Assembly (NCBI GenBank): GCA_020636475.1
Contig: JACJXU010000002.1
Location: 211,501-275,500, forward strand
Direction of reading: 5' to 3'
Length of the DNA stretch: 64,000 nucleotides
Source: Chitinophagales bacterium
Lineage (GTDB): Bacteria; Bacteroidota; Bacteroidia; Chitinophagales; UBA2359
Made by a program: the position numbers and the translations under genes. Shown here in pieces: positions 7,358-42,350 of the stretch. Position 1 is the stretch's first letter. Every line of letters starts with the position of its first letter. The notes beneath the pieces are model-generated. The model was given only the letters and a program-made list of their open reading frames with translations. It did no database searches and was not told the DNA's origin.

Positions 7358-7379
7358 AAATGAGGCGTTTAGGTTTCGT

Positions 7380-7405
7380 TATTTATGCGCAATAATTCAG
7401 TAATT
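7380..7405. repeat. 26-bp direct repeat, left copy (3' end of a PIN gene)
   Basis: These 26 bases match 8450-8475 with one mismatch. On the minus strand they encode ITELLRINN. This copy continues through Glu-Thr to a stop codon at 7371-7369, which is the natural end of a DUF3368/PIN gene. Together the copies bracket the zincin gene. Confidence 0.85.
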
Positions 7406-7410
7406 TGAAA

Positions 7411-8175
7411 ATGAGAAATCCTACAAGAAGAAATAGAAATATAGGAACCAAGAAACAAGGATACGGACAGGATAATGAACTGACGATACCTGAACCCGTT
7501 ATTACATTGAAGTCTTTTTATGAACGTCATGGCAACTATAAAAAAGAAAAACGAATTATTAACGGACACGAATTCATATTAGTTACAGAGCAGACAAGAG
7601 AAACTTCAAAACATGCTTGCACAATTGATGATATTGAAAAGATGATAAGTAATATTCCGGTAAAAGATTATGGCAAACTAAAATTTATCATTCTTAGACA
7701 ACCAAAAAGGAAAGAAGAAAATCTTTCGTCGGTTTGGGGAAGATTAGTTTACTCTTACGAATTTGAAGATAATTATTTCCCTGCAATAATTATTGAAGCG
7801 AATGATTATTCAAAGTCTTTTAAATGGTCAAAAAAACTTTCACCAGATACGCAAGACGAGTTAGAAAGACTTCGGAAAGATGGACACAATATAATTGAAG
7901 AAAAACGCTATTTCACTGCTGAGTATAAAATTGAAAATGTAAGGCAAACTCAACTATATAGAACGCTACTTCACGAATTTGGACATTATGTTCACTACTT
8001 GGAGTTTGTTGAGCGACCAGGAACGGAAAATGAAGAATTTGAAGAATGGGAAAAAAGAAGAGATGACTACTTTAAATTATCAACAGCAGATAAGGAAAAA
8101 TTTGCTCACAAATATGCGGATAACTTAAAAAAGGAATTAACAGAAAAAGGAGTTATACCATTTGAAAAAATTTAA
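7411..8175 (+). CDS. Zincin-like putative metalloprotease
   Basis: 254 residues from the ATG at 7411. The key feature is HEFGH at residues 188-192 inside TLLHEFGHYVHYLEF, the HExxH zinc motif of gluzincin/metzincin-like peptidases, followed by acidic residues that could supply the third ligand. The N-terminus is basic and Arg/Asn-rich with no signal peptide, so the protein should be cytoplasmic. The family was not identified further. The gene lies between two 26-bp direct repeats derived from a PIN toxin gene, so it is probably inserted cargo. Its start region overlaps the left repeat flank. Confidence 0.65.
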   Translation: MRNPTRRNRNIGTKKQGYGQDNELTIPEPVITLKSFYERHGNYKKEKRIINGHEFILVTEQTRETSKHACTIDDIEKMISNIPVKDYGKLKFIILRQPKRKEENLSSVWGRLVYSYEFEDNYFPAIIIEANDYSKSFKWSKKLSPDTQDELERLRKDGHNIIEEKRYFTAEYKIENVRQTQLYRTLLHEFGHYVHYLEFVERPGTENEEFEEWEKRRDDYFKLSTADKEKFAHKYADNLKKELTEKGVIPFEKI

Positions 8176-28156: not shown

Positions 28157-30964
28157 ATGAAAAAAATCCTCTTTAGTATTCTGTCCTTATGCTTTGTTTT
28201 TACGGCAAAGGCACAACTTGTTTATACCGAGCCGATTTTTCCAACAGTCGATGCACCCGTTACCATCTTTTTCGATGCTACGCAAGGTTCGGGAGGACTG
28301 GCGAATTGCAACTGCGATGTGTATTTGCACACGGGCGTTATTACTTCCGAAAGTACCGGAAACTCCGACTGGAAACACGTAGTAACTGCTTGGGGTGTGG
28401 CAAACGATACTTACAAAATGACACAACTAAGCGACAATTTGTATAGCTACACCATCAACGATATTCTCGATTTTTATAACATAAGCGAAGGTGAAGAGGT
28501 ACTCCGATTGGCTTTTGTGTTCAGAAATGCCAACGGTACTTTGGAAGGAAAAGACGTGGGCGGCACCGATATTTTTGTCGATTTGTATCCTGTCGGTTTG
28601 CATGTAAAGTTTGCCAATCCTACTGCCTATGAAAACTTTGAAGAACCCAACCAAAGTATTACTATCGCCGCCGAAGCTACGCAAGCCGCTACAATGAGCT
28701 TGTACCAAGATGGAGTGTTGCTGGCAACCGCCGAAAATGAAACACAACTAAGCTACAATATTACCACACCTGCATCGGGAAAATTGCGCCTTAAAATGAC
28801 GGCTGAAAATGCCAATGGCTTTGCCGAAGATTCTATTACGATTGTGGTAAAAAGTGCTACCCAAACCGCCGAACTACCCGAAAACATGGAAGATGGCATC
28901 AATTACCTTAGCGAGAGTAGTGTATTGTTGAGCCTGTACGCGCCGGGTAAGGATTTTATTTATGTGGTAGGCGATTTTTCTAATTGGGAAACCGAGCCCA
29001 ATCTGCAAATGAAACGCACCCCAGACGGAAACCGATTTTGGGTGCAAATAGATAACCTAACGCCTCAGCAAGAATACGCCTTTCAGTATTTTATTGATGG
29101 CTCCCTAAAAGTAACCGACCCGTACGTGGAATTAGTTCTCGACCCATCCAACGACAACTACATTACCGCCGATGTTTACCCGAATTTAAAACCATATCCT
29201 AACGGAAAAACAACAGGTATTGTCGGAGTTTTGCAAACGGCTGCACCCGAATACGTTTGGGAAACAACTAATTTTGAAGCCCCGCCCGCCGAGAATTTAG
29301 TTATTTACGAACTGCTCCTACGCGATTTTGTACACGCACACAACTACAATGCCCTCAAAGACACGCTCAATTATTTGCAAAGTCTGGGGGTAAATGCTAT
29401 TGAGTTGATGCCCATTATGGAGTTTGAAGGAAACATTAGCTGGGGATATAATCCTTCGTTTATGCTTGCGCCCGACAAATATTACGGCACCAAAAACATG
29501 CTCAAATCGTTTATAGACGAGTGTCATAGCAGAGGTATTGCCGTTATTTTGGATATTGTACTCAATCATCAGTTTGGTCAAAGTCCTTTGGCGCAGATGT
29601 ATTTCGAGGGCAGTGCGCCTTCGGCAAATAGTCCATGGTTCAATGTTACTGCCAAGCACGATTTTAATGTAGGCTACGACCTGAATCACGAAAGCCCTGC
29701 CACACAATATTTTGCGGAACGCGTAATGAAGCACTGGATAGAAGAATACAATATTGACGGCTACCGCTTCGATTTATCGAAAGGATTTACGCAAACCAAC
29801 ACATTAGGCAATACCAGTGCTTGGGGACAGTACGATGCTTCGCGCATTGCTATTTGGGAAAACTATGGCAATTACATGTGGTCGCTCAAACCCAATTTTC
29901 ATATTATTTTAGAGCACTTTGCCGTAAATACCGAAGAAAAAGAACTCGCAGACAATGGTTTTATGCTGTGGGGAAATGAAACCTACAAATTCGGTCAGGC
30001 AGGTATAGGCTTCGTAAATGGAACTAACTTCGACTATGCCTACTATAAAGTACGCAACTTTAATGAACCGCACTTAGTTGCCTATATGGAAAGCCACGAC
30101 GAAGAGCGATTGATGTACAAATGTACGTCCGATGGTTTGGCAGATGGTGGATATGATATAAAGCTCGAAGAAGTAGCCTTAGAGCGTATGAAATTGCTTG
30201 CCAATTTTTACTTTGCTATTCCGGGTCCCAAAATGATTTGGCAATTTGGTGAGTTGGGCTACGATTACTCCATCAACTACAACGGACGCACCGGACCCAA
30301 ACCTATTCGTTGGGATTACTTTACAGACGAACGCCGCCAAAAAGTATATCAAGTGTATAGTGCTATGAGTTTTTTGCGGGAAAACTATCCTACATTTACA
30401 GAAGGTACTGCCACATTAGCTACCGGAAGTAGCGTTAAAAAAATCACCTTATTACACGAAGCAATGGATGCTTTTGTAGTAGGCAATTTTTCTATTGCAA
30501 CCAAAGAAGAAACCATTAGCTTCCCACACGCAGGCACCTGGTACGAGTTTTATAGCGGCGACTCCTTAGAAATTGCCGATGTAGGGACTACTTTAGCCTT
30601 AAATCACGGCGAGTTTAGGCTCTACACCACCGAAAAATTGCCCACGCCGCCAGCCGGCTTACAAGACTTGACGGTATATAGCCCTACAATAACTGCCGAA
30701 GAAATTGGTTTTGCCTGTTATCCCAATCCGGTACAAAGCCAAATACAACTAAGTTGGACACAAGCGAGTACCACGCCCACACAAATTGTATTGTACAACG
30801 CACAAGGGCAGGAAATAGCCCTACTTTTAGTTGAAAATATGTCAGCAGGCAAACAAATACACGATTTTGACCTTAGCAAATACCATTTAGCGGCAGGCAA
30901 TTATTTCATTAAAATAGCCAACAAAGATTTTTATTTAGTGGAGAAAATAGTGGTGATGCCGTAG
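28157..30964 (+). CDS. Secreted GH13 alpha-amylase family protein with T9SS signal
   Basis: 935 residues: signal peptide (ends FTAKA); an N-terminal beta domain (about 22-150) typical of Bacteroidota amylases; an Ig-like segment (about 150-240); a CBM48/E-set-like domain (about 255-345, with VYVVGDFSNWETEP-type sequence); the GH13 barrel (about 375-720); and a type A T9SS sorting domain (about 855-935, CYPNPVQSQIQLSW). Catalytic residues are Asp539 (GYRFDLSKG), Glu586 (IILEHF) and Asp648 (MESHDEERL). It should hydrolyse or rearrange alpha-1,4/1,6-glucans outside the cell. No SusCD genes adjoin. Confidence 0.92.
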   Translation: MKKILFSILSLCFVFTAKAQLVYTEPIFPTVDAPVTIFFDATQGSGGLANCNCDVYLHTGVITSESTGNSDWKHVVTAWGVANDTYKMTQLSDNLYSYTINDILDFYNISEGEEVLRLAFVFRNANGTLEGKDVGGTDIFVDLYPVGLHVKFANPTAYENFEEPNQSITIAAEATQAATMSLYQDGVLLATAENETQLSYNITTPASGKLRLKMTAENANGFAEDSITIVVKSATQTAELPENMEDGINYLSESSVLLSLYAPGKDFIYVVGDFSNWETEPNLQMKRTPDGNRFWVQIDNLTPQQEYAFQYFIDGSLKVTDPYVELVLDPSNDNYITADVYPNLKPYPNGKTTGIVGVLQTAAPEYVWETTNFEAPPAENLVIYELLLRDFVHAHNYNALKDTLNYLQSLGVNAIELMPIMEFEGNISWGYNPSFMLAPDKYYGTKNMLKSFIDECHSRGIAVILDIVLNHQFGQSPLAQMYFEGSAPSANSPWFNVTAKHDFNVGYDLNHESPATQYFAERVMKHWIEEYNIDGYRFDLSKGFTQTNTLGNTSAWGQYDASRIAIWENYGNYMWSLKPNFHIILEHFAVNTEEKELADNGFMLWGNETYKFGQAGIGFVNGTNFDYAYYKVRNFNEPHLVAYMESHDEERLMYKCTSDGLADGGYDIKLEEVALERMKLLANFYFAIPGPKMIWQFGELGYDYSINYNGRTGPKPIRWDYFTDERRQKVYQVYSAMSFLRENYPTFTEGTATLATGSSVKKITLLHEAMDAFVVGNFSIATKEETISFPHAGTWYEFYSGDSLEIADVGTTLALNHGEFRLYTTEKLPTPPAGLQDLTVYSPTITAEEIGFACYPNPVQSQIQLSWTQASTTPTQIVLYNAQGQEIALLLVENMSAGKQIHDFDLSKYHLAAGNYFIKIANKDFYLVEKIVVMP

Positions 30965-30999
30965 AGGAGGTTTTGAACAATAAAAATATTACTGCATAA

Positions 31000-31037
31000 A
31001 AAAAATCCCGAAACAATAAACAGTTTCGGGATTTTTT
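31000..31037. terminator. Bidirectional terminator between amylase and tRNA genes
   Basis: A perfect 15-bp stem, AAAAAATCCCGAAAC / GTTTCGGGATTTTTT, around an 8-nt loop. A-rich on one side and T-rich on the other, so it can end transcripts from both the plus-strand amylase gene and the minus-strand tRNA. Confidence 0.85.
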
Positions 31038-31038
31038 G

Positions 31039-31112
31039 TGGTCCCACCAGGGCTTGAACCTGGGACCCCCTGATTATGAGTCAGGTGCTCTAACCAACTG
31101 AGCTATAGGACC
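31039..31112 (-). tRNA. tRNA with CAU anticodon (elongator Met or Ile2)
   Basis: A full cloverleaf of 74 nt on the minus strand: acceptor GGTCCTA pairing with TGGGACC plus discriminator A; D arm GCTC...GAGC; anticodon stem CCTGA/TCAGG with loop CTCATAA (anticodon CAT); T arm CCAGG TTCAAGC CCTGG. CCA is not encoded. CAU can be elongator tRNA-Met or the tRNA-Ile2 that TilS converts to lysidine-34. The stem sequences alone do not settle which one this is. Initiator tRNA is excluded because the anticodon stem lacks three G-C pairs. Confidence 0.93.
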
Positions 31113-31206
31113 GCTGCACCACAAAGCAACGGGTGCAATAATTTGGAGCGCAAATATAGTATTAATATCAAAAATAAAATACTCTTAGCCCAAATTTTTG
31201 TATTTT

Positions 31207-31557
31207 TTATTCTTCTTTCTTGCAGCAGTCCGGCAGGTTTTTATATACTTCAGCATTGGCGGGGCTGCCGTTGGCATCGTAGCCTAATTTGTTGATGGCA
31301 GCAATAATTTTATCCGCATTGGTTTTGCGTTTGTCGTAGCGAACTGTTAGTATTTGGGTATCCAAGTCTAAAGAAACAGCCCTTATGCCTTTTTCATAAA
31401 TAATATTATCTTCTAAGGTTTTTTGACACATACCACACTGGGCAGATGTTTTTATGCTTATTCCTTCTATATTTTTTTGCGATAAGGCTTTATTATTGCC
31501 ACAACTCATTAAACTACAAAATAAAACGAGTGGAATGATTAAAAATAACTTATGCAT
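31207..31557 (-). CDS. Heavy-metal-associated (HMA) domain lipoprotein
   Basis: 116 residues. Lipobox at Cys19 (SLMSC). HMA-fold sequence with metal site CGMC (41-44) in the ISIKTSAQCGMCQK segment, a GIRAVSLDLDTQILTVRYD core, and a C-terminal DCCKK that may add thiolate ligands. It lies 27 nt downstream of a TonB receptor gene and probably binds Cu(I) or a similar soft metal in the periplasm. Confidence 0.85.
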   Translation of the reverse strand: MHKLFLIIPLVLFCSLMSCGNNKALSQKNIEGISIKTSAQCGMCQKTLEDNIIYEKGIRAVSLDLDTQILTVRYDKRKTNADKIIAAINKLGYDANGSPANAEVYKNLPDCCKKEE

Positions 31558-31584
31558 AGGTTTAAAAATTTTATAATTAAAAAA

Positions 31585-33813
31585 TTATTTCAGCGTCCAT
31601 TTCACGCCAATGTACGTCATTCTGCCAAAAATAGGTCCCCACGTATTGCTTGCATCAAAATTAGCCGCAAAAGGAGTTTCCCAGTTTTGGATAGGATTTT
31701 CTTGTTTAAAATTAAATAAATTTTCGGCACCAAGATATATTTCACCACTTTTAAACACATAATTTACTTGCGCATTGTGCAAATTGTATGCCGGAGCTTT
31801 GGTAAGTTGGTTTTCGCCATTGTCGGCAGCAATCGCCAAGTTTTGTGTGCCTATCAGTTGCGAGGTCCAGTTTACTTGCCAGTGTTCGTTATGACTTTTG
31901 TAAGTGAGATTTATCAAGCCTTTGTGTTGTGGAATAAAAGGCACATTTACATTTTCTATGCCAAGATAAGAAGTAGTAAGGCTTTCGTATTTGTATGCCA
32001 AACGTACATCAAAATCATGCAGCAGTTTGTAGTCCAATTGTGCCTGAAAATAATTGGCGATGGACTTTGGTGCAGCAATAATCCAAATAGTGCTTGCATC
32101 GGAATACGTATCTACCAAAGTTTGGTTTTTCAATAAGGTCTGATACGCATCAATACTAAAACTCGCTTCGCGTTGCCATAGCGTAAAGTTTTGGGTGAAA
32201 TTAGTTCCATAGTTCCACGCAAATTCGGCGGGTAAGTTTAGGTTTTGAAAAACAAACGGACGATTGCTGAGGAGCAGATTGGTGTTTTCGGCAAAAGGAT
32301 TGGCGCGGCGGAAACCTCGTCCTGCAGAAATACGCCAAGCACTGCGTTGCCCCAATTTGTAGCGCACATGCAATCGCGGACTCAACTGTGTGCCGTACAA
32401 ATTGTGTGCATCAAGGCGCAAACCCACAATCATACTGAAACGCACATTGGGCGCGTAATTGTATTCGCCAAAAATTCCCGGTACGGATTCATCGCGAAGA
32501 AATGTTTGGGAAGAAGCAGCATTTTCGGCAAGTGCTTCGCGGTACTTATCAAGAATATAGCTGGCTCCTGCCGTAAATTTATGTTTGCCCAAACCTGTGT
32601 CGGTAGTGTAAATAAGGTTGGCGTAAAGGCTTTGCTGCTTGGCATCATAGTCGCGAATACCAAAAAAGGAATTTTGTTCGTGCCACTGCCACGACACTTG
32701 CAAACCTACGCTGGTATTAGGTTTGTCGAAAACATAGCCCGTTTTACTAAAAATCTCAAAGCGTTCGGTGTCAAAGCCGAAGCCGTAAGGGTTTTCGGTG
32801 TTGCGAATTTGGTTTCGGTCGAAATCTAACTCACCGCCTGTCCGTTGGTCGTTAATGTATTTCACGCCCCATTGTCCTTCTATGTGCTTGCTGCGGTAAT
32901 CCCAGCGATTGAACAGCATCACATTTTTGCGCAGCGGCATATCTACGAAGTTGTCGCCATTTTTGTCGTGTTTTGTAGTAAGCAAGTTCCCATGCGTCAT
33001 GAGCATTCCCGCCCAATGTTTATTTATTTTTTGGGCAAAATTGAGGTTCAGTTCCGTACGTCCTGCTTCGTTTACATACACATTGGCAAAGAATTTTGGC
33101 GCATCAAAAGGCTTTATATAGTCAATATTTATCTGTCCGCTAATGCTTTCATAACCATTTATCACCGAACCCGCGCCTTTGGTAAGTTGTATGGCATTCA
33201 TCCACGAGCCCGGAATATATTCCATACCATAAGTGGCAGACAATCCGCGCAATGCCGGAATATTTTCGCCCAAAATTTGGATATAAGCACCATCTAAACC
33301 CAGCATACGCAGTTCTTTGGCACCCGTTACGGCATCGGCAAAGTTCACATCAATAGAAGGATTGGTTTCAAAAGATTCACTGAGGTTGCAACAGGCGGCG
33401 CGGCGAAATTCCTTGCCCGTAATAGTTTCTACTTTGGCGGATTCCAGCATAGAGATATGGGTAGCGTTGTAGTCGGCGGTTATTTCTATTTCGTCCAGAT
33501 TACGCTGCGATTTCATTACAATTTTTATGGTTGTTTGATTGCTCGCAACTTTCAGCGTATCCGTTTTGTAGCCGATATAGCTTACAATAAGCGTATTGGT
33601 ATTTTTTATTTTACTTAAAGAAAAATTGCCCAAACTATCGCTAATTGTGCCGAGCGTAGTATTTTGCCAATAAACATTGGCTCCCCACAAGGGAACTTCG
33701 TGGGCCTGTTCATCTATTTCCACAATAGTACCTTCCAAGTTTTGGGCAAAAAGTGAAGGCAGAAATAAGAATGAACTGATTATGTTTAAACTTAAAAAAA
33801 ATCTCGTTTTCAT
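31585..33813 (-). CDS. TonB-dependent receptor, probably metal-related
   Basis: 742 residues. Signal peptide (ends LFAQ), a CarboxypepD_reg-like domain (about 27-105), plug (about 125-235, with a Cys pair in RRAACCNLSESF and a conserved KELRMLGLDGAYIQILGENIP run), then a 22-strand barrel ending in Trp-Thr-Leu-Lys. It imports a ligand across the outer membrane using TonB energy. The CC pair in the plug and the flanking HMA and HYC_CC_PP genes point to copper or another heavy metal. Confidence 0.88.
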   Translation of the reverse strand: MKTRFFLSLNIISSFLFLPSLFAQNLEGTIVEIDEQAHEVPLWGANVYWQNTTLGTISDSLGNFSLSKIKNTNTLIVSYIGYKTDTLKVASNQTTIKIVMKSQRNLDEIEITADYNATHISMLESAKVETITGKEFRRAACCNLSESFETNPSIDVNFADAVTGAKELRMLGLDGAYIQILGENIPALRGLSATYGMEYIPGSWMNAIQLTKGAGSVINGYESISGQINIDYIKPFDAPKFFANVYVNEAGRTELNLNFAQKINKHWAGMLMTHGNLLTTKHDKNGDNFVDMPLRKNVMLFNRWDYRSKHIEGQWGVKYINDQRTGGELDFDRNQIRNTENPYGFGFDTERFEIFSKTGYVFDKPNTSVGLQVSWQWHEQNSFFGIRDYDAKQQSLYANLIYTTDTGLGKHKFTAGASYILDKYREALAENAASSQTFLRDESVPGIFGEYNYAPNVRFSMIVGLRLDAHNLYGTQLSPRLHVRYKLGQRSAWRISAGRGFRRANPFAENTNLLLSNRPFVFQNLNLPAEFAWNYGTNFTQNFTLWQREASFSIDAYQTLLKNQTLVDTYSDASTIWIIAAPKSIANYFQAQLDYKLLHDFDVRLAYKYESLTTSYLGIENVNVPFIPQHKGLINLTYKSHNEHWQVNWTSQLIGTQNLAIAADNGENQLTKAPAYNLHNAQVNYVFKSGEIYLGAENLFNFKQENPIQNWETPFAANFDASNTWGPIFGRMTYIGVKWTLK

Positions 33814-33912
33814 GTTTGATTCAATTTAATAAAATTCGTTGGTCAGCAAGTTTACTATGTGTAAAATTGTGTCCTAAAAAGATTGGTCAAAAAATTAGAT
33901 TAAAAGGAATTG

Positions 33913-34413
33913 CTAACAGCGAAAACAAGCGTTGGAAATGCTAATGAGCTTACCGCTATGAAAGGGAAATAAGTGCAGATACCTGCTAAAAACAAGGCTA
34001 AAAGGTGTTTTTTCAAAGGAGAAAACTATCCCCAATACGCTAAAAACAACACTAAGCCACAACAGCAAAATCCATACTTGCCATTGCTGCGTCAGTTGTT
34101 TTACGGGGAGTTCGTTGGAAATGCTTCCCAATACAAATTGTGTGCTATAAGTACAGCAGTTATCGGAAGTATTTAGTTCTTTGGTAGTTGTATTGGCTGA
34201 TTTTTTACAGCATGTTTTTTCAGTAGAACAAGCTTGCTGTGAGGCGATTTTTTCGGCACATTTGGTAATGGGTAGCAAGGAAAAATCTTGTAATTGTGCT
34301 GCCCTACAATGGTGAGAATTGATAAATACTACTCCTGAACTAAACAGCAACCATACTGCCAACATTTTTAGCAGATAAGGGAAAAAACGCCATTTTTTGA
34401 GTGAAAGTAGCAT
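33913..34413 (-). CDS. HYC_CC_PP-type cysteine-rich protein
   Basis: 166 residues. A hydrophobic N-terminus ends with INSHHC (His34, His35, Cys36, in place of the usual HYC). Several further Cys follow, including CSTEKTCCKK and DNCCTYS, then a TM helix (about 111-130). This layout matches the Bacteroidota HYC_CC_PP family, found next to TonB receptors and HMA proteins. The His/Cys set suggests metal binding at the envelope. It is about 100 nt upstream of the receptor gene on the same strand. Confidence 0.6.
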   Translation of the reverse strand: MLLSLKKWRFFPYLLKMLAVWLLFSSGVVFINSHHCRAAQLQDFSLLPITKCAEKIASQQACSTEKTCCKKSANTTTKELNTSDNCCTYSTQFVLGSISNELPVKQLTQQWQVWILLLWLSVVFSVLGIVFSFEKTPFSLVFSRYLHLFPFHSGKLISISNACFRC

Positions 34414-34533
34414 ATTTGCAAAGATAAAGCAAAATGTTGTTGTTTGTCGTGCCGACCGTTATAAAAAAAGTTAAGAAGTGGGCGAATTAGGAATAAAAAT
34501 TAAAAAGTAGTAGCTTTGGGGAAAAGTGAATAT

Positions 34534-35049
34534 ATGATAAAGGCAAAACCATTTATAAAATGGGTAGGAGGTAAAAGTCAACTGTTGGAACAGTTTGAAA
34601 ATTATTATCCCAAAGAACTCAGAAAAGGTACAATTAAAAACTATGTCGAGCCTTTTTTGGGTGGAGGAGCTTTATTTTTTGCTCTTTCGCAACGCTACAA
34701 AATTGAAAACGCCTACTTATCAGACCTTAATAAGGATTTGGTTTTGACTTATCAGATAATTCAAGAACGTCCAAATGATTTGCTTGAATTTCTGGAACAA
34801 TACCAAAAGGACTATGACCAAACCGAGCAAGAAAAACGCAATGACTTATTTTTAGAAGTTCGCGAACAGTTCAATATACAACGCTTTGAAATAAATTATA
34901 AAAACTTATCTGATAATTGGGTTTCGCGAGCAGCGCAGTTTATATTTTTAAACAAAACCTGTTTTAATGGACTTTTTCGCCTGAACTCAAAAGGTGAGTT
35001 TAATGTGCCTTATGGGAAGTATAAAAAGGCGGCAAAAAAATGGAAGTAA
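34534..35049 (+). pseudogene. Dam-type DNA adenine methylase, C-terminally truncated
   Basis: 171 residues from the ATG at 34534. The N-terminal half of a D12-class N6-adenine methylase is clear: KPFIKWVGGKSQLL (AdoMet-binding motif), VEPFLGGGALFF, LSDLNKDLVLTYQII and KTCFNGLFRLNSKGEFNVPYG. After GKYK the frame turns to KAAKKWK and stops. The remaining 90-100 residues, including catalytic motif IV (DPPY), are missing, so methylation activity must be lost. The break coincides with the start of the next gene (ATG at 35040 inside the tail). Confidence 0.85.
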
Positions 35050-35837
35050 TCAAAAACCCTTGGAAAGAAAGATTAATGACACTTATCAAAGAGTCAGAAA
35101 AATCAATACAAATTACTTCTCCATTTGTTAAAGAAAATATTTGTCGGGAAATCTTTGAATTGAAAAATAAGGGCGTGTCTTTTGAGCTTATAACATCTTT
35201 CAATTTATCAAATGCGTATAATGGGGCATTAGATTTATCTGGACTAGACCTGATAATACAGAATAAAGGAATCATAAAAAATTATCCAAAATTACACTCT
35301 AAAATATATATTTTCGACTCAAAAAGGGCAATAATTACTTCTGGAAACTTGACGAATGGCGGACTACTAACAAATTATGAGTATGGTATTTTGTTTGATG
35401 AAGTAAGCGTTGTAAAGGAGGTAGAAAAAGATTTTGAAAATATTGCAAAAAATGAGATAACTGGTAGTGTAACCAATGAGCATATTAGACAGGCAAGTAT
35501 TATTTTATCTAAAATACCTAAAATTGAAAAAATTACTATGCCTACTATTGAAATAGAACATAAAGAAACAAGCCCTTTTGTTCTCGAAGATGTTAACGAA
35601 TCAATATCATCGACATTAAGGGGATGGAAATTAAGTGTATTTAAGTGTGTTGATGCTATTCAAAAACAAGAGTTTGTGTTGCAAGATATTTATTTATTTG
35701 AAAAAGAATTACAGAAAATATATCCTGAAAACAATAATGTAAGGGCTAAGATAAGACAACAGATACAATTCTTACGAGACTTAGGGTTGATAGAATTTCT
35801 ATCCAATGATGGTAAATATAGAAAATTATGGAAATAA
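35040..35837 (+). CDS. PLD-family nuclease with DpnI-like methyl-DNA winged helix
   Basis: 265 residues. The N-terminal phospholipase-D-like domain has one HKD motif: His86-x-Lys88-x4-Asp93 in LHSKIYIFD, followed by SGN (Asn103). A single motif implies a dimeric active site, as in BfiI. The C-terminus (about 194-265) closely resembles the winged-helix domain of DpnI (Dam-replacing HTH): RGWKLSVFKCVDAIQ, LQDIYLFEKELQ, KIRQQIQFLRD and a final GKYRKL. In DpnI that domain reads N6-methyladenine in GATC. I infer a methyl-directed restriction enzyme. It overlaps the truncated dam gene by 10 nt and the next ORF by 10 nt. Confidence 0.8.
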   Translation: MEVIKNPWKERLMTLIKESEKSIQITSPFVKENICREIFELKNKGVSFELITSFNLSNAYNGALDLSGLDLIIQNKGIIKNYPKLHSKIYIFDSKRAIITSGNLTNGGLLTNYEYGILFDEVSVVKEVEKDFENIAKNEITGSVTNEHIRQASIILSKIPKIEKITMPTIEIEHKETSPFVLEDVNESISSTLRGWKLSVFKCVDAIQKQEFVLQDIYLFEKELQKIYPENNNVRAKIRQQIQFLRDLGLIEFLSNDGKYRKLWK

Positions 35838-36213
35838 AACTCCAGCAACAATATGATTTGATTTACTCATTTTTCAAAACGACTACAGAACCTTTTGATT
35901 ATTTGGATTGGGACGGTAATTCTCTTTATGTCTTTTTCCAAAACGAAATAATAGAAGTTTACAATTATGAAGACTTATGTAGCATAATCGAAGGGCTATA
36001 AAGCTTACGAGATTAATAACACGATTTTTGTAGATAATAGCCATTACATTTAAAGTTCGTGGCAAATTCACACCAAAAAGAAGGTAAACATACTTTTCTT
36101 TGAAAAACGAAAAGATGCTTATTCCCTTTGGGAATTCGGTTTCTCAGACGAAAGCAATTATAATAGCATCGAACTTTTGAAAAGTGCTAAATTTGAAATA
36201 AAGGACAAATAGG
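35828..36213 (+). pseudogene. Decayed small gene after the PLD nuclease
   Basis: An ATG at 35828 inside the nuclease stop (ATGGAAATAA) opens a 57-codon frame rich in aromatic and acidic residues (FDYLDWDGNSLYVFF). Past its stop at 36001 the neighbouring frames continue similar sequence: KAYEINNTIFVDNSHYI and then KKVNILFFEKRKDAYSLWEF, ending at 36213. This is best read as one gene of about 125 codons broken by at least two frame changes. Alternatively only the 57-residue ORF is real. No family recognised. Confidence 0.45.
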
Positions 36214-36257
36214 AAATATCTGACTCTACATCAAGTTCCAAACGAGCAAACAAAAAT

Positions 36258-36291
36258 AAAACCGCTCCGAAAATTATCCCGAAGCGGTTTT
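36258..36291. terminator. Terminator between decayed gene and adhesin gene
   Basis: The stem AAAACCGCT / AGCGGTTTT spans a 16-nt loop. It is A-rich on the left and T-rich on the right, so it can serve the minus-strand adhesin gene, whose stop is 26 nt away. Confidence 0.6.
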
Positions 36292-36316
36292 CTATTAACC
36301 TACAAAATGAGTTTTT

Positions 36317-39300
36317 TTATTTGAGTACTTCTATGTAGCCGGCTCTGGTTTGTGCACCGTCAGGTGTATTGTATTGCAGCAAATAGAAGTAAGTACCATC
36401 GGGAACCGCTTCGCCGCTATTGTCCCAAGTACCGTCCCACGCATCGGCGGCAGTACCCATGTAGCCTGTTTTTTGGAACACAATATTTCCCCAGCGGTTG
36501 TAAATAATTAATTCCGCATCCGCATCTGGATAACAATCATTTAACCAAGGAATAACAAAAATATCGTTTATGCCGTCTCTGTTGGGCGTAATTCCTTGTG
36601 TAATGTTTGTTTCTTCACAAGGTACTTCACTTTCAACAACCGTAATAATTACCAAAGCTGTATCGCATACTTGCAAAGGATTGCAAATGATATAGCTGAA
36701 AGTATCAACGCCTGCAAAATCACTATTGGGCATATACACCAGCAAATCAGGATTGTTTTCAATAGTACTTACCGTACCGTTATTCGCTTGCGTAAAAGAA
36801 ATTACGTGAATATCAGAGCCTGTATCGTTGGTTAGTACATCAATGGTAATATCCGCAGCTTGTTGGGTAGTGCGAATATCATCAACCGCTATTACATCTT
36901 CTATCGGCAAATTGCCAATATTAATCTGAATATACGCTGTATCGCAAAGCGCAGGTTGTCCGTCATCGCACAGTACATAGGTCATATAATCAATACCTAA
37001 ATAATTTTCGTCCGGTATATATACAATACAACCATCTTCATCTAAAGTATAAGTACCGTTGGCAGGTTCTGAAGAAACTTGGTACGTAAGTACTTGGTTT
37101 TGGTCGGCATCACTGTCATTGTCTAAAGGACAAATTTGTACTTCGGTGTTGATAATTGTGGAAACGTTGTCGTTATTGGCTTGTGGATAATTATTGGAAA
37201 TAGGTGCATCAATATAAATGATAACACTCGCCTCGTCACACAATTCCGGCGACTGATTGTCGCAAATCGTATAGTTGAAAGTAATTTCTCCGGTGAAATC
37301 GGCATTGTCAGGAACAAAAATAGCCAGAGAGCCTTGGTTGGTAATAAATACCTCGCCTTCAGGTGAAGGAGTATCTACGAAAGAAATATAAATATTGTCT
37401 TGATTGGGGTCACTATCGTTTTGTAGTAAATCCATATTAACCGACTCGCCCGCGCTGGAGAAAAATACATCATTATCGGCATGTGGTGGCAAGTTTATAT
37501 CAGCCGGTACTACGGTAACACTTACCAAAGTAGAATCGCATTGGTTGTTGCCATCACAAATTGTATAGAAAAAGTAATCGACACCCGAAAAACCTACCGT
37601 AGGAACATAAGTTAAAGTCAGATTGTCATCATCGGGAAAAACAGAGCCATTTTCTCCTTGTTGGAATACGGTAATGCTAATATCATTTCCCGAGTCATTT
37701 TGGAGTACAAAAATCTCAATAGGCGTATCCATTGGTGTTTGTACTACATCGGGCTGTGCAATAACGAGTTCGCCTATGGTAATATACACAAAAGCCGTAT
37801 CGCACAAAACAGGAGAACCTAAATCGCAAATAATATATTGCAGCGTATCTAAGCCCGAAAAATCTTCGTCAGGGGTATAATAAATTTGTCCGGCAGTAAT
37901 TTCGGTGCTACCGTGCATAGCATCTACCAAAATTTGGTTCAAAATTACATCGCCACCTTCGGGATCATAGTCATTGCTAAGTACAGGAATGGCAACGGCT
38001 TCGTTTATTGGCGTTGCCGCAGAGTCGTCCACTGCAACCGGTGCTTGGTTTGTTAGTGTGCCTACCGTTACATATACGGTCGCATCGGAAGTGTTGCCGC
38101 TGCTATCCGAAATGGTGTAAATAAAGGTATCTACACCTTCAAAGCCAGGGGCTGGCGTGTAAATAATATTACCTTGTCCATTAATCGTTACTGTACCGTG
38201 CTGAGGCTGTAAATAAGAAATAATCACCGGATTGATGCCCAAGTCATTGTTTAAAACCTCAATTTCTACTTGTATATTTGGTAGTGTAGTAGCGGTATCC
38301 GATACGGCAAACAAAGTGTTTGGGTCAATAGGAACTATGTTTAAATATACCGTAGCTGTATCGCATAATACCGGTGTGCCATTGTCGCAAATATAGTAGC
38401 TAAAACTATCGCTGCCTTCGTAATTGGCTTCCGGTAAATAGTTTATTACATTATCATTAAGGCTGGTAGTTCCGTGTTGTGCAGGTGTAATAATTCCTCC
38501 CACTGCAATCGTTTGGTTGTCAGGGTCAGAGTCATTTAGCAATACCGAAATATTGGTATTGCCATTTACACTAACAATATCGTCTTGCGCAATAGGCGGC
38601 ATATTATCTGTTTGCGTGAAAACAGTAATGGTTACAATTGCGGTATCACAAATGTCTTCATTGCAAATGGTATATTCAAAAGTATCTGTGCCGCTGTAGC
38701 CGTCATTGGGCGTATATACCAGCACACCATTTGTTTCTTCTACCGAACCATATTGTGGCTGCGTAAAAGAATCAAGGCTAATATCAATACCGGTATCATT
38801 TTGCAGTGGGTCAATTATTAAGGAATTGTCTATCAATGTCTGATACGTATCATCTGCGGCATTTACGGCATCGCTTTGTCCACTTACCGTAATGGTTACA
38901 ATAGCTTCGTCGCACATAGGGTTGGTGCATATATTACATGCCTCGTAGGCAAAAATATCCGTTCCTGTGTAGCCATTGTTGGGCGTATAGGTAAAAGTAC
39001 CGTCTATATTTAGTACTACGGTTCCGTGTTGTGCTTGCGTAATAATATTTGTACTTAAAATATTGTTGCAAGGGTCGGTATCGTTGATAACTACATTTCC
39101 GTTCAAGTTAGTATTCATGGGCGTAGTGTAGTTGTCATCCATGGCTACTGGTTGCGTGCAACCTACTTGTATATACGCATAAAAAGTGTCTAATTGTCCT
39201 GTAGGAGATTGCCCTACAATAATTACAGAGTCCAAACCTTCAAATGCCGGCAATGCACGATATAAAATACATTCTTTGGTTTCTTGTTCTATACTACAGT

Positions 39301-41335
39301 TAAAAGTAGTAATTACTTTATCAATTGTATCCAATTGCGCGATGTTACAAAAAGTAGGGCAAATTTCAATCTGCTCTATAGGTTGCGCACAAAACTCCGC
39401 TACATTGCTACACTCTTCGGGCATTTCGGTAACAGTTATGCCAAGGGGTGTACTTATATCGGCACAAAGTCCTTGGTCAATAGCTGCCAAAATAGCTTCT
39501 ATCGATGGGTAGTTCTGGTTTACCAAAGTACCGTACAAGCCTTTATATGATATGCCAAAAATTTGATACGTACCGGTACCAAATTCTGTAAAATCGAAGT
39601 TGCCATCTAAGGTAATATCTATCAGATTGTACTGCACATTATCGTTGGGATTAGTGTCTTGGGTAAGGATATAAAAATAATGGTAGCCTGTACCTGCAAA
39701 TTGACCGCTTACTTGAGGTAATTCATAAGCATCATCCACCATAAACTCAGTCTGGCTCATAGTAATAGTGCCAGCTTCAGCCTGACAAGCTATTTGTACA
39801 CTAATATTTGCCCCGAAGCCGGAAGTATCAATACAAATACTACTTGCACCCGACGCTTGAATAACATCAATACTTTCAAAATTATACGCTTCGTATTCGG
39901 CGAGTGTTCCTTTAAAAGAAACGCCCCAAATACGATAATCGCCTACGGGAAGGTTGGCAAAATCGAAATTGCCATCGGTGTTATAAGCAACAATATTGTG
40001 CGAAATACCGTCACCGACATACAAATTTGCCGTTAGGACAAATAAGAATAAATAATCGCTTTGTGTATTTTGTCCGCTTACTTGCACACTCGGAATTTCA
40101 TCGCCCACATAGTACAAATTGGTACTGAGGCTTATGGTTCCCGCTTCAGCCGTACAAGTTTCAACATTGGTAACATTGAGCGAAACAAAATTGCTGAAAT
40201 CGGCGCAAATAGATTCGTTGTTTATCATGGCACTCAACTGCTGAATGTTTTGCGCATTTAAAGAAGTTAAATAAGTGTAATCTCCTTCAATAGAAATTCC
40301 CCATATTTTGTACGAACCTATACCAAAAGTATTGAATTGAAATACGCCGGAGGAGTTTATTTGTAAAATTTCGTTGTTGCTGTTGGTAAGAAGGTAAAAA
40401 TAATGCAATTCGCTGCTACTCGCTGCACCAGAAACACTCGGATTAGGAGAAGATTGGTTTACATTTATCGTATTAGGACTAAGGCTTAAACTACCTCCGT
40501 CTGCATTACACTCATTTACCACTTCAACAATGCTGAAATTGGCAGCTTGCGTTACATCCGCACAAAAATTATTTGCTTGTAAGCTAATAGCAGCCTGAAT
40601 AGCATCAATACTAAGGTAATTAAAATTCAGGAAATTGCTGTAAGTTCCTTTATAAGAAATTCCCCATATCTGATAATTTCCGACCGAAAAGTTATTGCTG
40701 TTAAAATTTCCTGCGGTATTGGTATCTATAATATTGTATAGCGTATTGTCATTGGGAAATAAATCTTGTGTGAGCACATAAATGTACGTATATTCTATGC
40801 CCGTACCGGCTCCCGTTACGGTAGGAATCGGAACATTGCCGCCTACGGTAATGGTATTGGTACTCAAAGAAATACTGCCCGCTTCGGCAGCACATACAGG
40901 TTCGCCACAACCTTCCGGTGATATCAGAATATTAAAAGTAAAATCGGAGCAACTTGTAGAGTCTGTTTGGCTACATACTGTAATAATTACTTCGTCAGTA
41001 CCCGTTTGGGCTGGTAGCGGCGAGTAGCGAAAGCAAGTGTCGTTTAGTACATAAATACCGCAACCAAATAAAGAATTGTGGCCGGAAATAAAAACGGCTT
41101 CGTCTTCGCAGCCGGGCACACAAAACACTTCTTGCGGCACATTGCCGGGCGTGTAGGCAGGAACGCAAAAATCGCCCAAGTCGGTGTCGCCGCCACAAGG
41201 CAACTGCTGTTGTGCTTGTATGGGCGCAAAGATGCCACTTGCCAGTAAAGCAATGGATAATAACCAAGACACAGAAAAGGCTCGGCTTAAAGTAAAAAAT
41301 GTAGTATTTTTTATATTGGTACGAATCTTATTCAT
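36317..41335 (-). CDS. Giant adhesin with CHU_C (T9SS type B) C-terminus
   Basis: 1672 residues from the ATG at 41335. A signal peptide ends near IQAQ (about 41). A Cys-rich leader (about 45-145) is followed by four related modules of about 120 residues (148-270, 275-392, 394-515, 517-637), each with 'AEAG(T/S)ISLS', a YFYILTQD-like strand, 'GNFDF', a 'G.Y.IWGISYKG' run and 'CADxS'. A bridge (about 640-735) leads to nine cadherin-like 'tandem-95' Ig repeats (about 738-1580), each starting with 'A.DD' and containing 'LxNDxD' calcium-type motifs. The final 95 or so residues are the gliding-motility-associated C-terminal domain (ITPNRDGINDIF, IYNRWGNIVF, AWDGTWDN). Probably a T9SS type B surface adhesin. 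A PorP/SprF gene precedes it by 52 nt. Confidence 0.9.
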   Translation of the reverse strand: MNKIRTNIKNTTFFTLSRAFSVSWLLSIALLASGIFAPIQAQQQLPCGGDTDLGDFCVPAYTPGNVPQEVFCVPGCEDEAVFISGHNSLFGCGIYVLNDTCFRYSPLPAQTGTDEVIITVCSQTDSTSCSDFTFNILISPEGCGEPVCAAEAGSISLSTNTITVGGNVPIPTVTGAGTGIEYTYIYVLTQDLFPNDNTLYNIIDTNTAGNFNSNNFSVGNYQIWGISYKGTYSNFLNFNYLSIDAIQAAISLQANNFCADVTQAANFSIVEVVNECNADGGSLSLSPNTINVNQSSPNPSVSGAASSSELHYFYLLTNSNNEILQINSSGVFQFNTFGIGSYKIWGISIEGDYTYLTSLNAQNIQQLSAMINNESICADFSNFVSLNVTNVETCTAEAGTISLSTNLYYVGDEIPSVQVSGQNTQSDYLFLFVLTANLYVGDGISHNIVAYNTDGNFDFANLPVGDYRIWGVSFKGTLAEYEAYNFESIDVIQASGASSICIDTSGFGANISVQIACQAEAGTITMSQTEFMVDDAYELPQVSGQFAGTGYHYFYILTQDTNPNDNVQYNLIDITLDGNFDFTEFGTGTYQIFGISYKGLYGTLVNQNYPSIEAILAAIDQGLCADISTPLGITVTEMPEECSNVAEFCAQPIEQIEICPTFCNIAQLDTIDKVITTFNCSIEQETKECILYRALPAFEGLDSVIIVGQSPTGQLDTFYAYIQVGCTQPVAMDDNYTTPMNTNLNGNVVINDTDPCNNILSTNIITQAQHGTVVLNIDGTFTYTPNNGYTGTDIFAYEACNICTNPMCDEAIVTITVSGQSDAVNAADDTYQTLIDNSLIIDPLQNDTGIDISLDSFTQPQYGSVEETNGVLVYTPNDGYSGTDTFEYTICNEDICDTAIVTITVFTQTDNMPPIAQDDIVSVNGNTNISVLLNDSDPDNQTIAVGGIITPAQHGTTSLNDNVINYLPEANYEGSDSFSYYICDNGTPVLCDTATVYLNIVPIDPNTLFAVSDTATTLPNIQVEIEVLNNDLGINPVIISYLQPQHGTVTINGQGNIIYTPAPGFEGVDTFIYTISDSSGNTSDATVYVTVGTLTNQAPVAVDDSAATPINEAVAIPVLSNDYDPEGGDVILNQILVDAMHGSTEITAGQIYYTPDEDFSGLDTLQYIICDLGSPVLCDTAFVYITIGELVIAQPDVVQTPMDTPIEIFVLQNDSGNDISITVFQQGENGSVFPDDDNLTLTYVPTVGFSGVDYFFYTICDGNNQCDSTLVSVTVVPADINLPPHADNDVFFSSAGESVNMDLLQNDSDPNQDNIYISFVDTPSPEGEVFITNQGSLAIFVPDNADFTGEITFNYTICDNQSPELCDEASVIIYIDAPISNNYPQANNDNVSTIINTEVQICPLDNDSDADQNQVLTYQVSSEPANGTYTLDEDGCIVYIPDENYLGIDYMTYVLCDDGQPALCDTAYIQINIGNLPIEDVIAVDDIRTTQQAADITIDVLTNDTGSDIHVISFTQANNGTVSTIENNPDLLVYMPNSDFAGVDTFSYIICNPLQVCDTALVIITVVESEVPCEETNITQGITPNRDGINDIFVIPWLNDCYPDADAELIIYNRWGNIVFQKTGYMGTAADAWDGTWDNSGEAVPDGTYFYLLQYNTPDGAQTRAGYIEVLK

Positions 41336-41387
41336 AAAATGCGTATTTTCAATGCTATATAAATTTTTAAAACAAAACACAAAACGA

Positions 41388-42350
41388 TTAAAAGTATCGC
41401 GGTGTCACAATTTTTTGATTTCCTTTATCAATATCCAAACCAATCATTACCTCGTGAGAACCCGTGTTCACATTTTGGAGCTTCGAAAGCGTATAATCGT
41501 ACGCATAGCCGATGCGCAATTGCGGTGTTGCCTGAATTTCAACCAAGAAATCTACTGAGTCGAAATTGCGATAAGAAGCACCGAGCCACAACACTTTTTT
41601 CAATAAAAAGCTCACATTAAAATCGGCGGAAAGCGGTGCTACCGAAGGTACATATTTTAGCAAAAACGAAGGTCGGAAATCTATTGACTCCGACAAAGCT
41701 AAAATCAAACCACCCGTAAGAAAATAATGACGATACTGATGTGCCAGTTTGTTGTTCAAGGTATCTGCACCGCCCGTTGAGTTGGGTTGTATTTCATTGT
41801 TGAGCAAATGCGGCACCGAAAGTCCAAGATAAAACTTGGTGTTGTACAAGTAAGCTCCGGCACCAAAATTGGGCAGTATTTTGTTGAAATCCTCACTCAA
41901 GCGAGGGTCATATACGGTCGTTTCTACTTTGGTGTACTCCGAATTGTACGATTGTATGCCTGCCTGAATACCCAATGCCAAGCGCAAGCCGCCATCAAAA
42001 TTTAGGGTATAGGCATAACTGCCAAAAACATCAATTTTGTTATGCGGACCTATTTCGTCTATTTGCCCCCACAAACCCAAGCCTACATGCTTGCCCACCG
42101 GACTGTGCACACTCAGTGAAGCCGTGCGAGGCGCGCCTTCAATTTGCTGCCCCACCCACTGCGTTCTGCCTATGGCAGTAGCACTCAGCGCATCGCGGCT
42201 TCCCGCATAGGCAGGATTTAGCACCAAGCCATTGAACATATACTGCGTATATTGCGCGTCTTGTTGCGCTTTGATGTCTTGAAAAAGTATCAGGCAAACA
42301 ATAAACGCAGGGAAAATAAATCGTGCATACGGTGTATTTAGTCGCTTCAT
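41388..42350 (-). CDS. PorP/SprF family T9SS outer membrane protein
   Basis: 320 residues. Signal peptide, then the family signature DAQYTQYMFNGLVLNPAYAGSRDA, followed by beta strands ending near the C-terminus with IGYAYDYTLSKLQNVNTGSHEVMIGLD. PorP/SprF proteins attach CHU_C-type substrates to the surface and pair one-to-one with them. Here the PorP/SprF gene is upstream of its adhesin, 52 nt away, so both are probably one transcript. Confidence 0.93.
   Translation of the reverse strand: MKRLNTPYARFIFPAFIVCLILFQDIKAQQDAQYTQYMFNGLVLNPAYAGSRDALSATAIGRTQWVGQQIEGAPRTASLSVHSPVGKHVGLGLWGQIDEIGPHNKIDVFGSYAYTLNFDGGLRLALGIQAGIQSYNSEYTKVETTVYDPRLSEDFNKILPNFGAGAYLYNTKFYLGLSVPHLLNNEIQPNSTGGADTLNNKLAHQYRHYFLTGGLILALSESIDFRPSFLLKYVPSVAPLSADFNVSFLLKKVLWLGASYRNFDSVDFLVEIQATPQLRIGYAYDYTLSKLQNVNTGSHEVMIGLDIDKGNQKIVTPRYF

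Follow-up and report, generated by a model that had tools for sequence, protein, structure and literature searches.

In a 64,000-nucleotide stretch of the genome of a Chitinophagales bacterium (contig JACJXU010000002.1, positions 211,501 to 275,500; hereafter the window) we have found a gene whose product joins a PLD-like nuclease domain to a C-terminal winged helix of the DpnI type (PLD-wH), and which begins where a dam-like adenine methylase gene has lost its catalytic half. The active site of this nuclease is conserved, junctions of the same kind recur in other bacteria, and the place that some of its relatives occupy is one also taken by DpnI. We consider it probable that the gene encodes a methyl-directed GATC restriction enzyme, type IV or IIM-like, belonging to a family that has repeatedly replaced GATC methylase loci and reversed their polarity.

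A PLD nuclease fused to a DpnI-type winged helix

The product of the window gene matched the Pfam profile PLDc_2 at residues 13-135 (E=3.9e-17), with an additional match to RE_NgoFVII, and DpnI_C (PF17726) at residues 194-262 (E=4.8e-28), while PF06044, the PD-(D/E)XK domain, was not found in it by Pfam, PLDc_2 standing in that role. It is the same fusion of a PLD nuclease with a C-terminal DpnI_C domain that characterizes the PLD-wH type IV endonucleases. Between the two solved structures matched by sequence, DpnI 4esj scored better (E=3.2e-18, residues 189-263), in line with the reading of the C-terminus as a DpnI-like winged helix given by the first-pass annotation, a model's note made from the letters alone. 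The AF2 model, built from 86 sequences, reached a mean pLDDT of 91.2, and its Foldseek matches were NucT (6ehi), SauUSI (7clg), BfiI (2c1l) and DpnI (4kyw/4esj). DpnI was therefore recovered by the structural comparison which that annotation had proposed, but only locally (query TM 0.26, rmsd 17 Å across both domains), so the likeness of the reader domain rests mainly on sequence.

Residues H86, K88, D93, S101, N103 and E114 were invariant in alignments of both 36 and 86 sequences, and the HKD residues were kept in all PLD-wH locus rows covering them, the window protein having an intact active site. The presumed DNA-contact residues of the winged helix would be K237 and R239, whose pairing with K229 and R231 of DpnI supposes that the numbering of the 257-residue 4esj chain is shifted by three from that of the 254-residue DpnI; their equivalents were kept in the locus rows except L011 (Q/R), L044 and L047. 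The substitutions K229A and R231A are reported to impair DpnI (PMC4117772).

Homologues of the window PLD-wH protein numbered 438, and PF17726 was present in all among the 120 matches listed. Genome stretches were confirmed in 124 cases, of which we retained 80, comprising 54 PLD-wH loci and 26 PLD-only relatives; the winged helix was seen in 51 of the 54, the other three (L050, L053, L054) being close PLD matches without it. According to their record titles, the 54 loci span Bacteroidota, Bacillota, Acidobacteriota, Spirochaetota, Pseudomonadota and a number of further phyla; cultured hosts among them are Runella zeae (L021) and Flavobacterium piscinae (L004). For five pairs of PLD-wH genes dN/dS was 0.04-0.20, one pair having dS >1.5. 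Some PLD-wH genes appeared interrupted by a stop or a gap (L035, L041, L022, L054). A virus search returned 41 pattern stretches with zero true relatives, and plasmids (66 records) and phages (3 records) gave zero matches covering 80% of the query.

The same annotation knew of no described enzyme with this pairing, a claim overtaken by a 2024 account of winged-helix fusion endonucleases, in which 27 predicted PLD-wH members are proposed as 6mA-dependent type IV enzymes (PMC11037411). Plasmids with the PLD-wH enzymes Aba4572I and CbaI showed lower uninduced toxicity in Dam-minus E. coli, and on induction Aba4572I proved toxic in Dam-minus cells, an effect that the authors call "not well understood"; the Aba4572I gene adjoins a methylase predicted for CGATCG (PMC11037411). 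In that paper the evidence on PLD-wH enzymes is toxicity, with zero PLD-wH proteins purified there; the methylases that we found placed near PLD-wH genes belong to type I (17 cases), and we saw frameshifted ones mentioned beside PD-(D/E)XK-wH enzymes only. We found no mention in it of dam truncation by PLD-wH genes or of PF27350 and PF05869 neighbours, some of which its supplements may list. As for the earlier proposal of a methyl-directed enzyme with a PLD core, the core and the DpnI-type reader are both present and a restriction role is probable, but the published indication of methyl-dependence is toxicity, and Aba4572I was toxic without Dam when induced.

A dam gene cut at the start of the nuclease gene

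The gene fragment upstream of the nuclease (Table 1) covered positions 1-141 of 253 of the MethyltransfD12 profile (PF02086, E=7.6e-34) and only positions 2-140 of 267 of TIGR00571, and a complete Dam fold with DPPY was not encountered. Solved Dam and DpnII methylases align with the fragment as far as the GKYK region. Its closest relative, P0121, is 85-87% identical (alignment or BLASTP), and nine of the 14 aligned relatives (P0121-P0126, P0128, P0130, P0132) continue from GKYK to DPPY, the window fragment departing from those nine at GKYKKA and ending five codons further on. The ATG of the PLD gene lies at 35040 and the stop of the dam fragment at 35047-35049, which gives an overlap of 10 bp. 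Both the alignment with the 14 relatives and this overlap confirm what had been noticed at first sight, namely that the dam-like gene is cut after GKYK, without DPPY, right at the PLD start. The window gene sits, like a dam-replacing gene, at dam with the catalytic half removed.

Queries with the two methylases of DpnII-type loci, M1 (dam) and M2 (PF01555), and with the DpnII restriction endonuclease (REase) retrieved only the dam fragment from window positions 29001-42000, and a PF05869 query gave zero matches in the window. By the M1, M2 and PF05869 queries, the nuclease gene therefore stands alone, with no protecting intact methylase adjoining it. A gene on the minus strand (36317-41380) encodes a protein of 1687 aa that contains repeated segments and ends in a tail which we take to be typical of secreted Bacteroidota proteins.

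Table 1. Features at the dam/PLD-wH locus of the window
Feature	Positions	Strand	Remarks
Dam-family (D12) adenine methyltransferase, 5' fragment, 171 aa	34534..35049	+	Catalytic DPPY half gone
Junction of dam and PLD gene	35029..35049	+	Dam homology stops at GKYKKA; five further codons; stop inside PLD gene
PLD-wH endonuclease (predicted), 265 aa	35040..35837	+	Domain and structure matches
PLD-like nuclease domain, residues 13-135	35076..35444	+	Pfam, Foldseek
HKD motif, H86-x-K88-x4-D93	35295..35318	+	Invariant in alignments
Linker, residues 166-177 of low confidence	35445..35618	+	AF2 model
DpnI-type winged helix, residues 194-262	35619..35825	+	K237, R239 align with presumed DpnI K229, R231
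57-aa ORF, 10-bp overlap with PLD-wH stop	35828..36001	+	Related ORF in same place in L003

Recurrent truncation of dam beside PLD-wH genes

A survey for truncated dam genes beside fusions of PLD and DpnI_C, as proposed in the first-pass annotation, returned the same kind of junction as in the window at nine of the 54 loci (L002, L003, L007, L010, L011, L016, L046, L053, L054), where the Dam profile and an N-terminal motif revealed the 5' end of dam directly upstream of the nuclease; a dam remnant was absent at the other 45. The motif occurred nine times in the 558,580 bp of the 54 PLD-wH loci, each time on the nuclease strand and less than 1 kb upstream of the nuclease (48,741 bp), and was absent from the 26 PLD-only loci (251,578 bp). 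The pattern had been widened once L054 was known, and it misses distant D12 genes such as those of L034 and L032. If placements were independent, the probability that all nine matches fall on one strand and within 8.7% of the sequence would be about 6e-13; independence is incomplete, L046 and L054 being sisters.

All adjacent remnants keep the start of dam and lose its end directly before the nuclease, at widely varying points: on the 302 positions of the Dam profile they end at 20 (L053), 22 (L046), 59 (L003), 60 (L054), 153 (L002), 166 (window), 276 (L011), 287 (L007) and 289 (L010), while the remnant of L016 consists of some ten residues, found by the motif only. The dams of L007 and L010, as well as those beside DpnI in L184 and L187, are short by only about 10-15 residues, and their inactivity is no more than likely. 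In none of the 54 loci does PLD-wH adjoin a complete dam; a complete D12-type gene lies about 1.6 kb upstream in L034, and D12 pieces about 5 kb upstream in L032. The nuclease frame was full-length in eight of the ten dam-junction cases, window included, the exceptions being L053, where it runs off the contig end, and L054, where it stops early, about 100 bp before the contig end. When the presence of dam was mapped on a tree of 55 rows, at least eight changes were needed, at least five of them forced by starred branches; label shuffles were as low in 65 of 500 cases, which indicates no clustering, and the tree is blind to gain versus loss.

In L046 (5629-6711), a Zoogloeaceae MAG, an HTH-like stretch that stays under the Pfam thresholds is joined in frame to a scrap of the dam N-terminus and to PLD-wH. 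A palindrome-like intergenic stretch, recognized by eye, separates the dam remnant from PLD-wH in L007 (1100-1198) and L010 (5350-5449), and also precedes PLD-wH in L006 and L012; it may represent a recombination point.

A place shared with DpnII and DpnI

An intact locus of the DpnII type was found in genome G111 (L188, the same as L119), where dam (301 aa) is followed by a DpnII REase of 279 aa (PF04556, E=2e-95), an 88-aa ORF and M2. No other intact one was found: five dam loci were retrieved in longer form, L189-L192 showing neither REase nor M2 in a single-sequence search; among 30 dam loci of about 4 kb each (L118-L147), M2 was found only in L119, and a longer fetch revealed it in L120 (the same as L184). 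In L007, L010 and L011 a dam of the same subfamily has its end replaced, PLD-wH lies at the place of the REase, and M2 follows. M2 retains both catalytic motifs in L007 (with an uncertain start), L017 and L019, and it is broken in L010 and L011; L005, L016, L017 and L019 have M2 or pieces of it downstream and L012 has them upstream, with weaker PF01555-like matches in L028 and L029. The PF01555-like methylase frame of L029, from an Armatimonadota MAG, lies directly behind PLD-wH (6935-7846). The DpnII REase query gave nothing else in the 54 loci, window positions 29001-42000 and the DpnI loci.

DpnI itself appeared in the same position. In L184 a dam without its last residues is followed by DpnI, a RhuM-like ORF (our own reading) and an intact M2, and in L187 DpnI follows a dam without its end; likewise, the DpnI cassettes of L172 and L313 adjoin a 5'-truncated M2, DpnI being split in L172. 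Among 395 Bacteroidota genomes, nine carried PF17726, seven of them DpnI-type. PF06044 was run with Pfam on L184 and L187 only, the other DpnI-type loci being judged by sequence.

Candidate accessory genes

Close to the PLD-wH stop, 18 of the 54 loci have the start of a gene for a small protein of about 69 aa. Its relatives numbered 1215 and were marked PF27350 among the 120 listed, while the Pfam run assigned no family; 18 strong matches in 50 PLD-wH genomes were located at the PLD-wH locus by their coordinates. A convergent PF05869 adenine methylase follows PLD-wH in 10 of the 54 loci, two assigned by Pfam and the others by similarity. The order DpnI, PF27350 and convergent PF05869 was met in six of 11 DpnI-type loci (L171, L172, L173, L313, L315, L316), and this common order indicates that the two nucleases, DpnI and PLD-wH, share one accessory set. 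In L011 (1858-2406, minus strand) the PF05869 methylase has TPPY in place of NPPY. In L174 (4254-5262) a PF27350-like partner lies behind a 244-aa protein without Pfam match, an arrangement unique among five Bacteroidota genomes.

PF27350 and PF05869 are thus candidate accessory genes for methyl-directed enzymes, and they may help to explain why PLD-wH genes taken by themselves are poorly expressed. Should PF05869 act on double-strand GATC, the model would be contradicted for DpnI as well.

Dam genes and GATC content in the host genomes

Beyond the junction remnants, an over-cutoff TIGR00571 match was present in 12 of 50 PLD-wH genomes (16 of 50 with the remnants), the hosts of L035, L041, L048 and L050 being left out of this count; a Bacteroidota comparison sample, not matched to it by phylum, gave 49 of 296. 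Genome-wide absence of Dam was accordingly rejected as proof, in view of this lack of depletion. Six of the 50 genomes (G016, G030, G039, G042, G043, G046) have a Dam match of at least 200 bits elsewhere, five of them falling outside the clade of the window in the 55-row tree. The contig that bears the strongest match of G016 has six in-frame TGA and may belong to a recoded phage, and in G042 the PLD-wH protein (L044) has lost the reader residues; for the other four, all outside the clade of the window, no explanation was found. The claim that loss of dam is a requirement and not decay is therefore sustained in part: the cuts vary among separate lineages and the nuclease is mostly kept full-length, but the ban on Dam in the host is not absolute.

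The window holds 10 GATC sites against 127 expected (ratio 0.08), and ratios of 0.08 and 0.12 were obtained in G003 and G002, whose loci L003 (11.3 kb) and L002 (12.8 kb) contain none. CTAG (6 of 105 expected) and GGCC (6 of 152 expected) are depleted in the window (1-64000) like GATC. Sites remain in G010 (61 in 60 kb) and G011 (147 in 100 kb). Hosts of PLD-wH or DpnI, window included, had a median ratio of 0.36 (27 of 29 samples kept) and Bacteroidota with neither enzyme nor Dam 0.88 (17 of 20 kept; G051 not checked for Dam), a difference with a Mann-Whitney p of 2.2e-7 that ignores kinship; dam-plus genomes spread widely around a median of 0.71 (23 of 24 kept), with values near zero in G214, G378, G342 and G390. 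Samples with an expected count <8 were dropped, and many were taken from the start of a single contig, spanning at most 20 kb. Among the control words, GTAC and CATG were equal between groups, and TCGA, GGCC and AGCT differed somewhat. In Runella, five genomes with the winged helix gave 0.26, 0.19, 0.90, 0.20 and 0.29, and the six sampled of the eight without it 0.44, 0.32, 0.48, 0.32, 0.79 and 0.39; since ratios are low with or without the enzyme, GATC depletion appears to be largely a lineage trait, and we kept it only partly as a signature of the enzyme. G111, with the intact DpnII-type locus, showed no depletion (690 GATC versus 650 expected). Avoidance of GATC has been described as surprising in 38 of 42 genomes with DpnI-like enzymes, with GATC-specific ordinary systems noted in sister strains or genera (PMC4687349).

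Discussion

In the mechanism that we favour, the C-terminal winged helix would read adenine-methylated GATC, and two PLD domains, contributing one HKD motif each, would pair to form a metal-independent active site cutting near the GATC site through a covalent histidine intermediate; DNA from Dam-plus sources would thereby be destroyed. The PLD-wH gene would have replaced the 3' part of dam and may be expressed from the dam start region, while some relatives, and DpnI, would have taken the place of the REase in a DpnII-type M1-R-M2 locus, with a switch of polarity from 'cut unmethylated GATC' to 'cut methylated GATC'. Recurrent breakage of dam would be expected because a GATC-methylating cell would be killed, the survivors being those in which the acquisition itself broke dam.

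Several sets of data speak against this mechanism. Depletion of GATC in the hosts does so because a purely methyl-directed enzyme should not require it, and M2 genes with intact motifs adjoin the nuclease in L007, L017 and L019, and DpnI in L184. To these are added the toxicity of induced Aba4572I in Dam-minus cells and the CGATCG methylase predicted beside its gene, the Dam matches elsewhere in host genomes, the D12 genes upstream in L034 and L032, the PF01555-like frame of L029, the convergent PF05869 methylases, the 45 loci without a remnant, the dams short of only a few residues and the lack of clustering in the label shuffles. The DpnII-type M2, DpnA, is reported to methylate single-stranded DNA (PMC3573125), so an M2 beside the nuclease need not conflict with methyl-directed cleavage. 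Depletion and persisting methylases would also fit an ordinary enzyme that cuts GATC, or a related site, when unmethylated and that lost its partner dam to decay once the loss of GATC made a methylase dispensable: the very low ratios of the window, G002 and G003, the methylases of the M2 or PF05869 families persisting beside some members and the R-M role presumed for NgoFVII-type PLD enzymes all lean that way. We nevertheless judge it improbable for the family, as methylation-requiring DpnI occupies the same place in L184, not one complete dam abuts PLD-wH among the 54 loci, and G010 and G011 keep GATC sites with M1 and M2 both broken and without a further TIGR00571 match in their draft assemblies; an enzyme attacking unmethylated GATC should kill these hosts, barring protection by a methylase that escaped detection. 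This argument from surviving sites is inapplicable to the window, L002 and L003, nearly free of GATC, for which the ordinary enzyme may still hold.

It is also unlikely, if slightly less so, that the dam remnants are hitchhikers, left where the nuclease lands in defence hot spots rich in dam and DpnII without any selection against dam. The type I methylases reported near PLD-wH genes in 17 cases (PMC11037411), an Mrr-like gene near L002 and the 45 loci devoid of a remnant would agree with such landings, which would not by themselves account for remnants that invariably keep the start and lose the end of dam before the nuclease, nor for the REase place taken by the nuclease in three loci. An erroneous joining of dam fragment and PLD-wH in metagenome data, to which the prevalence of MAGs among the relatives might point, is extremely improbable, given the same kind of junction in nine other assemblies and the presence of the window protein on three contigs, the longest of 347,731 bp (a record of the protein, not of the junction).

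Beyond the replacement of methylase loci by a methyl-directed enzyme, we tentatively consider a wider possibility, which we hold to be somewhat doubtful: PLD-wH and DpnI could be interchangeable nucleases of one mobile cassette, together with PF27350 and the convergent PF05869, which flips GATC polarity in place, overwriting the REase and crippling M1 and M2 many times independently, GATC avoidance being the footprint of lineages cycling between polarities. It is weakened because the search yielded a single intact DpnII-type locus, in a genome (G111) that does not avoid GATC. Converted loci would nonetheless offer a genetic link between the two polarities and a testable history for the puzzle of GATC avoidance, and they suggest how a single recombination step, in place and with either of two unrelated nuclease folds, could turn methylation from a mark of self into a mark of foreign DNA.

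Among known systems, BfiI and NgoFVII share the PLD core with the window protein, as indicated by the fold match with 2c1l and the RE_NgoFVII profile, whereas their DNA-binding domain differs and their partners are those of ordinary R-M systems; NgoFVII-type PLD enzymes themselves we take to be ordinary R-M nucleases. Aba4572I and CbaI combine, like the window protein, a PLD nuclease and a DpnI-type winged helix in a single chain. DpnI (PF06044 plus PF17726), which forms a pair with DpnII in pneumococcus and for which the requirement for methylation is established, has the same reader domain as PLD-wH and the same place between dam and M2 in L184, but its core is PD-(D/E)XK instead of PLD, and PLD-wH probably cuts outside GATC rather than inside. 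No published account of a takeover of dam or DpnII-type loci by PLD-wH was found, the supplements of PMC11037411 possibly listing some of the neighbourhoods; as far as literature searches show, this takeover is the new part, parallel to those by DpnI and by Neisseria drg. The latter (NmeBII) has inserted at dam and is a methyl-directed nuclease for GATC; across 84 isolates, dam and drg exclude each other (PMC516771). While drg encodes a DpnI-type nuclease in one genus, PLD-wH brings a PLD nuclease to the same kind of locus in several phyla and with variable cut points.
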